Below, piece by piece: positions 49,273 to 52,548 of a stretch of DNA of 64,000 nucleotides. The stretch is from Paraburkholderia acidisoli (GTDB taxonomy: Bacteria > Pseudomonadota > Gammaproteobacteria > Burkholderiales > Burkholderiaceae), in NCBI RefSeq assembly GCF_009789675.1, contig NZ_CP046913.1, positions 3,176,104-3,240,103 on the forward strand. The letters run 5' to 3'. Position 1 is the stretch's first letter. Each line of letters starts with the position of its first letter. The notes beneath the pieces are model-generated. The model did no database searches. It was given only the letters and a program-made list of their open reading frames with translations, and had not been told where the DNA came from. The position numbers were made by a program, and so were the translations under genes.

Positions 49273-50346
49273 TCAGCCGCCGCGCGCCGCGCCCGCGCGA
49301 TCGGCGATCTCGTTCCACAAGTGCATGGCCGCATACGCGCGAAACGGCTGCCAGGTGTCGGTGCGCGCGCGCTGCTGGGTCGGGCGCACGAGCGCCGGGT
49401 CGCGCGCCACGATGGCCTGCATCAGCACGAGATCGGTCGCGGGCCACGCGTTGGGGTCGCGCCACGCGCGCATCGCCACGTATTCCACCGTCCATGGACC
49501 GATGCCGGGCAGCGCGAGCAACGCGGCGCGCATCGCGTCGAGATCGTCCTTCTGGACGGCGCTGGCTGCGCGTACGTCGGTTCGTCCGCTGCGGCGTTGC
49601 GCGCGCGGCTGGCCCGCGTCCACGGCGGCGTGGCTGCGCTCGATCGTGACGGCGCCGCTCGCGACGGCCTGCGCGAAGCCCTGCAAGGCCGCGACGCGCT
49701 TGCCCGGCATGCCGATGCCCGCGAGATCGGCGGCGGCGAGCGCGGCGGGCGTGGGGAAGCGCCAGGCCGTGAGCGCATGCGGATGCGACTCGATGCGCTC
49801 GCCCACGCGCGTGACGAGCCGCCCGACGATGGTGGTGGCCGCCTTCACGCTCACCTGCTGCCCGACGATCGCGCGCACCACGAGTTCGAAGCCCGACCAC
49901 GCGCCGGGCACGCGCAGACCCGGCGCGGCCTCGACGAGCGGCGCGAGCCACGGGTCGGTGGCGAGCTGCGCGGCGACGGCGGCGGGATCGGTTTGCAGAT
50001 CGAACATGCGCGAGAGCGGCGCGGCGAGCGCGTGGGCGTGAGCGCTCACGGGTCCGTCGATCTCGACCACGAGGCAACGCTTGCGCGCATGACGGCGCAC
50101 GGCGAGCGTGCCGCTCGCGCCCGCGAACTCGATGGCGCGCAGCCACGCGTCGTCTTCCACCGCTTCGACGCCCGGGATGGCGCGGCCGCGAAAGAACCGC
50201 AACACGCGCGGCCAGTCGTAGGGCGCGCGAAACGGCAGTTCGAGCGTGGCGTGCTGGCTTGCTGGCCGAATTTCAGTCGGGACATCGGCTTGTACGCTGG
50301 TTTGTACGTCGGCTGGGGTATCGGCCTGTGCGGCGGTAGCGCTCAA
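49273..50346 (-). CDS. alkA: DNA-3-methyladenine glycosylase II (AlkA-like)
   Basis: Base-excision enzyme of 357 residues that removes alkylated purines. The N-terminal TATA-box-like domain begins LELPFRAPYDWPRVLRFFRGRAI, followed by FELVVRAIVGQQVSVKAATTIVGRLV. The helix-hairpin-helix is LLALPGIGPWTVEYVAMRAW and the catalytic aspartate lies in PATDLVLMQA. No ATG fits; a TTG at 50346 overlapping the ada stop (TTGA) and preceded by GGAG is the best start. The first 30 residues repeat QADTPADVQTSVQADVP and look unstructured. Cotranscribed with ada. Confidence 0.88.
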   Translation of the reverse strand: MSATAAQADTPADVQTSVQADVPTEIRPASQHATLELPFRAPYDWPRVLRFFRGRAIPGVEAVEDDAWLRAIEFAGASGTLAVRRHARKRCLVVEIDGPVSAHAHALAAPLSRMFDLQTDPAAVAAQLATDPWLAPLVEAAPGLRVPGAWSGFELVVRAIVGQQVSVKAATTIVGRLVTRVGERIESHPHALTAWRFPTPAALAAADLAGIGMPGKRVAALQGFAQAVASGAVTIERSHAAVDAGQPRAQRRSGRTDVRAASAVQKDDLDAMRAALLALPGIGPWTVEYVAMRAWRDPNAWPATDLVLMQAIVARDPALVRPTQQRARTDTWQPFRAYAAMHLWNEIADRAGAARGG

Positions 50347-51539
50347 ACGGTGGTCTCCGGGGTGTCGCTGCGGTTGCGCCGAAGGTGGCGTCCGTCGGTA
50401 TGCGCGTCGTGCGCGTTCGCGGCGGGCTGGATCTCGCCCGCGCGCGCTTCGGCGTCGAGCAGCGCGGCCTTGCGCGTGAGCCCCCAGCGATAGCCGGCGA
50501 GCGAGCCGCCCTTTTGCACGACGCGATGGCACGGGATCGCGAGCGCCACCGGATTCGACGCGCACGCGCTCGCCACGGCACGCACCGCGCGCGGCGCGCC
50601 CAGCGCTTCGGCGAGCTGCGAGTAGCTGCGCGTTTCGCCGTAGGGAATGCGCTGGAGCGCGTCCCAGACGCGTTGCTGGAACGCCGTGGGCGCGACGTCG
50701 AGCGGCAGGTCGAAGCGCTCGCGGCGGCCATGCAGATAGGCGTCGATCTGGGCGACGAACGGCGCGACGGCCTGCTCGTCCTCCACGCATTGCGCGTTGG
50801 CGAAATCGGACTTGAGCGCGCCGATCAAGGCTTCGACGTCGTCGTCGAACGCAATGCGGCAGATGCCTTTGTCCGTCGATGCGATCAGCACGCGGCCGAG
50901 CGGCGTGGGCGCGCAGCCGTAGCGGATCGTGAGGCCCGCCCCTTTACGCCGATACGCGGACGGCGCCATGCCGAGTTCGCCCGGCACGCTGTGATAGAGC
51001 CGCGACGAGGAACCGAAACCGGCGTCGGCGCTGGCGCGCGTGACGTCGGTGCCCTCGCCCAGCGCGTTGCGCAGCACGGCGCCGCGGCGCGCGGCCTGGT
51101 ATTGACGCGGCGACACCCCGAGCACGCGCTTGAACAGGCGTTGCAAATGGAACGGGCTCAGGTGCACGGCGTCGCTCAATTGCGCGAGCGTGAGGCGTTG
51201 CTGCGGATCGGCGTCGAGCGCCGCGCAGGCGCGCTGCACGATCTCGAGCTCGCGCGGCAGGCCGCCGGGGCGGCAGCGTTTGCATTCGCGATACCCGGCG
51301 GCGCGTGCGCCGTCGGCATCGGCGAAAAACTCGATGTTCTCGCGCAGCGGCAGACGCGACGCGCACGACGGGCGGCAGAACACGCCGGTCGTGCGCACGG
51401 CGTAGAAAAAGGCGCCGTCGGCGCTCACGTCGCGCGAAGCGACGGCGCGCCAGCGTTCGGCGTCGCTCGACCACGCGGTGCTTGCCCCGCGTTCGGCGCG
51501 CGCGGGCTTCGTGGGTTTCGTGGGTTGGGTGGCGCTCAT
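50343..51539 (-). CDS. ada: Bifunctional methylation regulator / O6-methylguanine-DNA methyltransferase Ada
   Basis: Adaptive-response protein of 398 residues. The N-terminal Ada domain has the zinc cysteines C55, C59, C86 and C89 (GVFCRPSC, YRECKRCR), of which the first takes a methyl group from phosphotriesters. An AraC-type HTH follows (LTLAQLSDAVHLSPFHLQRLFKRVLG). The C-terminal methyltransferase has its acceptor Cys337 in AIPCHRVV. Methylated Ada activates its own operon, which here includes alkA by overlap. The ATG at 51539 follows GAGGAGTGACG. Confidence 0.95.
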   Translation of the reverse strand: MSATQPTKPTKPARAERGASTAWSSDAERWRAVASRDVSADGAFFYAVRTTGVFCRPSCASRLPLRENIEFFADADGARAAGYRECKRCRPGGLPRELEIVQRACAALDADPQQRLTLAQLSDAVHLSPFHLQRLFKRVLGVSPRQYQAARRGAVLRNALGEGTDVTRASADAGFGSSSRLYHSVPGELGMAPSAYRRKGAGLTIRYGCAPTPLGRVLIASTDKGICRIAFDDDVEALIGALKSDFANAQCVEDEQAVAPFVAQIDAYLHGRRERFDLPLDVAPTAFQQRVWDALQRIPYGETRSYSQLAEALGAPRAVRAVASACASNPVALAIPCHRVVQKGGSLAGYRWGLTRKAALLDAEARAGEIQPAANAHDAHTDGRHLRRNRSDTPETTV

Positions 51540-51797
51540 CTCGTCACTCCTCGAAAAGCCGGTTGGGATGGCTTCACTGTAGCCGCGCACGCCGAACGCA
51601 GCGCGCCGGATCTTGCGCTGTCATTTTGCCCTCCGGTTCGCGTGTTTTCGCCAGCCTTCGTCTCGCGGTTGCGCTGCATTGGCTGTCATTCGGACGCTGC
51701 GGCGGCGGTTTCGCGGCCTTCGGTGAATCCCGAATGGCGCGATGGGCCGCGTCGTGCGACAAAATGCCCAACTATCGGGTTTTCCCTTAAAAAGTTG
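51540..51797. promoter_or_regulatory. Upstream region of the ada-alkA operon
   Basis: Minus-strand promoter region of ada, shared with the plus-strand small RNA promoter at 51798. It contains CAAAATGCCCAACT near 51759-51773. No canonical Ada box was identified with confidence. Confidence 0.4.
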
Positions 51798-51826
51798 TTG
51801 CGTCGCGTCAGGCGGCTGTGTATAGT
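51798..51826 (+). promoter_or_regulatory. Promoter of the small RNA gene
   Basis: TTGCGT at 51798-51803 and TATAGT at 51821-51826 with an optimal 17-base spacer. Transcription would start near 51832-51833, directly at the pyrimidine-rich repeat. Confidence 0.75.
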
Positions 51827-51832
51827 GGTTCT

Positions 51833-51893
51833 TGTCTCCTCCATGTCTCCTCCTGATATGGATTAAGCCCGCTCACAGCAGCGGGCTTTTTTT
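51833..51893 (+). ncRNA. Small RNA with two tandem anti-Shine-Dalgarno motifs
   Basis: A compact unit of about 61 nt. The predicted 5' end consists of two direct repeats of TGTCTCCTCC (51833-51842 and 51844-51853) separated by one A. TGATATGGATT follows, then a terminator stem AAGCCCGCT/AGCGGGCTT with seven or more T residues. CUCCUCC is complementary to GGAGG ribosome sites, so the RNA could block translation starts broadly. From memory it resembles the Betaproteobacteria toxic small RNA family, whose members carry anti-SD motifs; membership needs a covariance-model search. No open frame fits; the gene lies between divergent ada and the VOC gene. Confidence 0.75.
51865..51893 (+). terminator. 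Rho-independent terminator of the small RNA
   Basis: Nine-base stem AAGCCCGCT (51865-51873) and AGCGGGCTT (51880-51888), six-base loop CACAGC, followed by an uninterrupted T run to 51893. Confidence 0.92.
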
Positions 51894-52140
51894 CGTCCAG
51901 CGTTTGTGGCAGGCGTTGCCCGTTTTCGGCTTTTTGCCTTCGCCCGCCCGCCGCGCCGCGTCTATTTTCCCCTGCTTCATTCATTCGTGCCGAAGCGCTC
52001 CGTCAAGGCGAGTCGGCGCGCGCCGTTGCGTGCCCTCATCGCCTGTCGATGTCGATGCCGATGTCGCGTGTCAATGCCGATAGCCGCGCGCCGCGCACGA
52101 GTTCACCATGCAAGGCGTGCCAATGCAAAACGGAGGCGTC

Positions 52141-52548
52141 ATGCGTATCCCGATTCGCGAAATCGACCATGTGGTCATCCGCGCCGCCGATCCGGCCGCG
52201 CTCACGCGTTTTTATTGCGACGTGATCGGCTGCACGCTCGAGCGCGAACAGCGCGACATCGGCCTCGTGCAGCTGCGCGCGGGGCGTTCGCTCATCGACA
52301 TCATCGGTGCGGGCGGCAAGCTCGATCGCGACGCCGGCATGGCCACGGGCACGGGCCGCAACATGGATCACCTGTGTCTGCGCGTGGAGCCGTTCGACGC
52401 CGCGGCGCTCAGCGCGCATCTCGCGCGGCACGGCGCGCGTCCCGGCGAGGTGGTCGAGCGCTACGGCGCGGAAGGACTCGGGCCGTCGCTCTATTGTTTC
52501 GACCCGGAGGGCAACATGGTGGAGCTGAAAGGACCGCCGCGCACGTGA
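52141..52548 (+). CDS. VOC-superfamily (glyoxalase/dioxygenase-like) protein
   Basis: Metal-dependent-fold protein of 135 residues. It starts MRIPIREIDHVVIRAADPAA with the first metal-ligand histidine, has a second in GRNMDHLCLRVEPFD and a C-terminal acidic ligand in CFDPEGNMVELKGP. This is the layout of glyoxalase I or fosfomycin-resistance-like enzymes; the reaction is unknown. The ATG at 52141 is chosen because CGGAGG lies just upstream; earlier in-frame ATGs at 52108 and 52123 lack such a site. Confidence 0.88.
   Translation: MRIPIREIDHVVIRAADPAALTRFYCDVIGCTLEREQRDIGLVQLRAGRSLIDIIGAGGKLDRDAGMATGTGRNMDHLCLRVEPFDAAALSAHLARHGARPGEVVERYGAEGLGPSLYCFDPEGNMVELKGPPRT

Follow-up and report, generated by a model that had tools for sequence, protein, structure and literature searches.

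The name of the Rfam family RF02278, 'Betaproteobacteria toxic small RNA', reportedly goes back to Kimelman 2012. In Burkholderia cenocepacia, four homologues are transcribed, and the double-hairpin RNAs ncS03, ncS05, ncS27 and ncS62 of this species have CU-rich parts that are predicted to cover ribosome sites (PMC5688073, PMC4603805, as far as their accessible text goes). Overexpression of ncS27 is reported to slow growth and antisense silencing to speed it (PMC5688073), and follow-up work on this RNA is covered by a review (PMC10987360). Four family members are described for Herbaspirillum (PMC7011215), and bdhR1 is named as another (PMC11722255). According to the accessible text of the latter source, S17 of Bordetella represses BP2158 through base pairing at a segment termed Site 1, and direct repression returns once the two strands carry matching changes. 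Hfq is involved, as is RNase E, which cuts the RNA from a 190-nt precursor, and the gene adjoins coq7 (PMC11722255). Since S17 had only modest effects on the growth of E. coli (PMC11722255), the term 'toxic' is not of general validity. In the Alphaproteobacteria, the αr14 or cuckoo RNAs carry anti-Shine–Dalgarno (anti-SD) motifs, CCUCCUCCC, in unpaired regions, and transport mRNAs are among their reported predicted targets (PMC10746234).

A family member between ada and a glyoxalase-family gene

The window, i.e. the whole 64-kb stretch of DNA analysed here, was searched against Rfam, and RF02278 was the sole family found at gathering scores. The match is of full length (model positions 1–64 of 64) and scores 76.5 bits, above the gathering score of 50. 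The earlier sequence-only reading of this DNA had pointed to a toxic anti-SD family of the Betaproteobacteria and had proposed an Rfam search of the region; that family exists as RF02278, and the window copy is a member of it. The structural features of the family are present, namely two hairpins, the second of which is an intrinsic terminator, and a CU-rich 5′ end and loop. The mmgR/suhB family RF00519, which we take to be that of the αr14/cuckoo RNAs, was rejected at 15.5 bits against a gathering score of 41. The following features lie in this part of the window.

50343..51539, minus strand: ada, divergent neighbour (Pfam Ada_Zn_binding, HTH_18, DNA_binding_1)
51788..51796, plus strand: A-rich element TAAAAAGTT upstream of the −35 box, with few changes across 29 loci
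51798..51803, plus strand: −35 box TTGCGT, letters confirmed at this position
51821..51826, plus strand: −10 box TATAGT, spacer to TTGCGT of 17 bases
51833..51894, plus strand: RF02278 small RNA (covariance-model score 76.5 bits, fold z −5.95)
51833–51842 and 51844–51853, plus strand: two copies of the CU-rich repeat TGTCTCCTCC, read directly
51833..51839, plus strand: unpaired 5′ segment UGUCUCC, beginning the first CU-rich pairing segment (51833–51842)
51840..51862, plus strand: hairpin 1, with loop UCCUCCU (51848–51854) as second CU-rich pairing segment
51865..51893, plus strand: intrinsic terminator, nine-pair stem 51865–51873/51880–51888, 6-nt loop and T run
52141..52548, plus strand: glyoxalase/VOC-family gene (Pfam Glyoxalase), with 52108 as a possible alternative in-frame ATG

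It is apparent that the minimal unit claimed in the sequence-only reading (TTGCGT, 17 bases, TATAGT, two repeats, and a nine-pair terminator with T run) is present in all its parts. A generic sigma-70 scan, requiring at least 9 of 12 matches, reported no promoter at the window RNA, the −35 box being weak. To judge from the sequence, transcription probably starts near 51833, and TAAAAAGTT may play the part of an UP element, which it resembles. The 62-nt RNA is predicted to fold into two hairpins at −25.7 kcal/mol, compared with a mean of −11.7 for shuffled sequences (z −5.95; 0 of 200 shuffles as good). In this fold the two repeats are unequally exposed. The first has seven unpaired bases (UGUCUCC), its last three bases, like the start of the second TGTCTCCTCC, go into the stem of hairpin 1, and UCCUCCU of the second makes up the 7-nt loop. 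The earlier statement on exposed CUCCUCC motifs is qualified to that extent.

The window RNA shares with the B. cenocepacia RNAs the full-length model match, the two hairpins, the CU-rich 5′ end and loop, and the occurrence of several copies per genome. It differs from them in that it comes from another species and lies beside ada. The CU-rich 5′ segment and loop are also shared with S17, to whose Site 1 the segment 51833–51839 corresponds by position (PMC11722255, accessible text); in contrast to the processed S17, the window copy carries a promoter immediately ahead of its CU-rich end. The window RNA and the cuckoo RNAs both present anti-SD motifs in unpaired regions, but the latter have three hairpins rather than two. 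The window RNA is an additional, well-conserved paralog in a known family, the role of which is only partly known.

The home genome (7.95 Mb, 5 contigs) contains four copies over the RF02278 cut-off (76.5, 73.2, 70.6 and 68 bits), and another, at 48.3 bits, falls slightly short of it; this supplies the paralog count that had been proposed as a check. TTGC occupies the −35 place before the other four copies (L010–L013) as well. These are situated beside ArgC-like and response-regulator-like genes (L010) and a membrane-protein gene (L011), these three labels being readings of the sequence rather than Pfam assignments, and beside OsmC and rplM-rpsI (L012) and a short-chain dehydrogenase (L013).

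Matches to RF02278 over the cut-off were found in 42 of 59 genomes, home genome included, and relaxing the limit to E 0.01 raised this to 50 of the 59. Each of the 34 same-genus genomes listed had 3–9 matches at E up to 0.01. A copy lay between ada and the glyoxalase-family gene in each of the 30 same-genus genomes fetched from these 34; 29 were chosen through the best-scoring copy per genome, which favours sameness, L258 was the thirtieth, and four were left out. The first 32 nt are identical in all 30 orthologous copies and TTGC is kept at −35 in all of them, with a −10 box of TATAGT or TATATT in 29 and TATACT in one. The motifs and promoter are thus conserved in relatives; a lack of conservation of the motifs had been named in the sequence-only reading as a refutation. 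The exact pattern (first 32 nt plus a near-identical terminator) was found in 26 named records, 25 from Paraburkholderia and one from Burkholderia sp., which makes Paraburkholderia the probable genus of the window.

Complementary sites and the proposed mode of action

The window copy is very probably an independently transcribed, trans-acting RF02278 sRNA of about 62 nt that blocks the ribosome sites of many mRNAs, as one of four or five paralogs. We infer its transcription, pairing and targets, and any role of Hfq. A sigma-70-type promoter would start the RNA directly at its CU-rich 5′ end, and the intrinsic terminator would end it. Both the free 5′ segment and the hairpin 1 loop copy the anti-SD motif. 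Through them the RNA would base-pair with many mRNAs at ribosome sites of the GGAG(GAGACA) type, leaving 30S subunits unable to bind. The four or five paralogs would probably act on overlapping sets of mRNAs.

The exact complement of the repeat, GGAGGAGACA, occurs at 32 places in the home genome, compared with 2 for the reversed word; five of these places are within RNA copies and 27 elsewhere. Among the latter, 15 lead immediately to an ATG opening at least 250 codons, and 19 do so when any start codon is allowed, the start codon lying at the last base of GGAGGAGACA or up to 5 nt after it. Controls were taken from an 864-kb sample of the same genome. There, the ATG rule was satisfied by 129 of 2677 GGAG sites (4.8%; Fisher p 4e-13 against 15 of 27) and by 1.2% of 20000 random places, and the corresponding values for any start codon were 8.0 and 4.6%. 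Most perfect complements of the repeat are ribosome sites, and the complementarity to ribosome sites that had been read from this one locus holds genome-wide. The ATG rule fails at 12 of the 27 sites, and at eight even with GTG or TTG. Five of these eight startless sites (L004, L008, L081, L091 and L097) are copies of one repeated element that carries GGAGGAGACA in identical context; it is probably a mobile element.

Start windows of the sampled genome gained little over internal windows in predicted pairing with the RNA (means of −9.8 and −8.8 kcal/mol), the starts having been chosen crudely; values at or below −16 kcal/mol were obtained for 53 of 633 start windows versus 26 of 633 internal windows. 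ACA follows GGAG in 15 of 266 cases before crude gene starts versus 1.1% elsewhere, and is thus about five times commoner there. No tuning of ribosome sites to the exact word GGAGACA is claimed, because TCA is favoured about as much as ACA, on 8 cases.

The 19 genes led by GGAGGAGACA include MFS, SDF and NCS1 transporters, dehydrogenases and a LacI-type regulator. Transporters, sorted by hand from Pfam names, account for 9 of the 19 and for 9 of 30 GGAG-led genes drawn randomly from the same genome (Fisher p 0.24), and no enrichment is claimed. For MFS alone the numbers were 6 of 19 versus 2 of 30 (p 0.04, uncorrected).

Alternative functions were considered. The main role of the RNA might be growth arrest: it would compete with the 3′ end of 16S rRNA for every SD-led mRNA and so hold down translation overall in starvation, rather than control a defined set of genes. 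The loop does repeat the anti-SD core, ncS27 overexpression is reported to slow respiration as well as growth, and the levels of several homologues are reportedly higher in biofilms, under starvation or in glucose medium (PMC5688073, accessible text). According to the available S17 text, however, exponential growth of E. coli is unimpaired by S17 overexpression, and about 91 genes, rather than all, went up when S17 was deleted (PMC11722255), and exact complement sites number just 27 in the 7.9-Mb genome studied here. Such a general brake on growth is rather unlikely, and the blocking of ribosome sites of many mRNAs is preferred.

That the RNA serves as a dedicated regulator of ada or of alkylation repair appears very improbable. 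None of the 30 same-genus genomes fetched departs from the place beside ada, and ada has a CGAGGAG ribosome site, but in pairing strength the ada start is among the top 14% of 633 start windows, just as the neighbouring glyoxalase-family gene is, so that the special status of ada suggested earlier is not supported; other copies, moreover, lie beside argC-like, rplM and other genes. Equally little can be said for a cis element, i.e. an attenuator or leader of the glyoxalase-family gene, which we consider most improbable: the strand is the same and the terminator ends about 250 nt before the gene start at 52141, but homologues are reported as separate transcripts (PMC5688073, PMC4603805, accessible text) and the 5′ end is kept while the neighbours differ between copies. 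The short length and weak −35 box might speak for a chance pattern in GC-rich intergenic DNA, a notion that the RF02278 score and the conservation refute and that we hold to be practically negligible.

Relatives outside the order and the rplM-side position

A class-wide search with RF02278 gave matches at E up to 1e-6 in 23 of 274 genomes, home genome included. Three were over the cut-off, two of them, besides the home genome, belonging to its order. The remaining 20 are from outside the order, which we take to mean outside the Betaproteobacteria in GTDB usage, and score 40.6–48.7 bits, under the gathering score of 50. In 58 further outside-order genomes no match at the RF02278 cut-off was found over the RNA, and these RNAs are not filed as members. 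The RNAs of the 20 genomes share CTCCTCC and a GC-rich terminator, with CCATC-CTCCTTT-GGTGG between the two in most of them. In many copies the loop is CUCCUUU on a CCAYC/GGUGG stem, and presumably repeats the 16S 3′ end.

For a covariance model, R1, we used 20 sequences, which came from 19 of these sub-threshold outside-order genomes. As these genomes had been found with RF02278, R1 is not independent of that family; the gene-neighbourhood test given below, unlike R1, is. With a limit of E 1e-4, R1 picked up 136 of the 369 genomes searched. Of these, 112 lie outside the order and score at least 40 bits; 78 of the 112 were fetched and 34 left out. Counts were limited to at least 40 bits because weak matches of 33–36 bits in Pseudomonas-like genomes proved to be a stretch of Pseudomonas-type PrrF (RF00444), a separate family that scores 127–162 bits against its own model. 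In a phylum-wide sample, R1 matched 25 of 299 genomes, in-class genomes being included in that total; two of the matches were outside the class and near the limit (E 9e-5 to 1e-4). No Rfam 15 family reached its gathering score over the RNA in the 78 fetched genomes. At one outside-order RNA there is an overlapping match to anti-hemB, weak at 29 bits against a cut-off of 49.5.

In an alignment of 38 R1 matches (34 distinct rows), which was fitted to R1 and includes the training genomes and six same-order loci, 98.9% of cells pair. Changes on both sides were seen in 46 cells, and none of 500 shuffles was as high. Helix 1 adds little to this covariation since it is hardly variable; most is in the terminator stem.

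It is apparent from the gene neighbourhoods that the RNA lies just upstream of rplM, on the same strand, in 60 of the 78 outside-order genomes (L101–L151, L153, L199–L238); this holds for 16 of the 19 genomes used for R1 and for 44 of the remaining 59. The L13 gene is situated about 87–691 nt downstream (median 162), RNA ends being approximate and some genomes counted twice. Of the 18 genomes without L13, one had just 128 nt of downstream sequence and 17 had at least 1000 nt. Every locus with an L13 match also had an S9 match. COQ7 is near the RNA in a subset of outside-order loci, and relatives on the OsmC/COQ7 side, like S17 with its coq7, occur in several other genomes. One outside-order genome (G180) was assigned through an identical Coq7 to Thiohalobacter sp. 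IOR34, of the Gammaproteobacteria. The rplM gene of E. coli is reported to be regulated through a 157-nt leader bound by L13, a different device (PMC10931766, accessible text).

The rplM-side neighbourhood is common to these relatives and to RF02278-member copies of the window's genus. Twenty other copies were fetched from nine same-genus genomes, the ninth contributing an argC-side copy only. Eight of the nine have an OsmC-side copy, seven with L13 and S9 in the stretch, and five of these eight copies carry CTCCTTTGGTGG, as do the outside-order relatives. Unlike the ada-side copies, those on the rplM side lack a −10 box immediately ahead of the CU-rich end, an absence that would fit a longer precursor like that of S17. 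In the rplM-side copy of the home genome, the CTCCTTTGGTGG-type loop has been lost and the promoter is compact. Because one copy in the genus keeps the rplM-side place, the ada-side copy is probably a duplicate, and the ada side would be the apparent site of an old duplication rather than a tie to alkylation repair.

Taken together, these data make it fairly likely that RF02278 is the betaproteobacterial branch of an older anti-SD sRNA with its ancestral place at coq7/rplM-rpsI, persisting, without an entry in Rfam 15, in many families of Gammaproteobacteria, and that the compact copies on the ada and argC sides in Burkholderia-type genomes are later duplicates in which the 5′ hairpin was lost. 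The rplM-side RNAs, putative as they are on sequence grounds, are a more interesting outcome than the window RNA. In the literature surveyed, which included few subscription papers and some sources in part only, no treatment of an RF02278-like RNA in Gammaproteobacteria or upstream of rplM was found; a paper on Aeromonas genomes contains the family's name once, and the S17 preprint text mentions neither Gammaproteobacteria nor rplM. If true, the 'betaproteobacterial toxic RNA' would become a widespread regulator of Beta- and Gammaproteobacteria beside a ribosomal-protein operon, a pattern that would call for a revised Rfam family and can be checked in existing Gammaproteobacteria RNA-seq data. 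It might be speculated that synthesis beside the L13–S9 operon could couple the translational repression of genes for uptake and catabolism to the production of ribosomes.

Several further observations were made at the outside-order loci. A simple promoter pattern matched at 18 of 35, and a TTGAC...TTA-type promoter word stands 47–119 nt before the RNA core in L139, L132, L133, L123 and others. Some of the RNAs have an extra 5′ hairpin before the CU-rich part. Three tandem RNA copies, about 100–120 nt apart, are present in L212 (G342, 1280–1558), and a second copy in L111. Glycine-riboswitch-like matches of 70 bits, below the gathering score of 110, are near the RNA in L114 and L119. In L234 (G120), the RNA (1501–1567) lies beside the 6S RNA gene (1218–1404), both on the minus strand.
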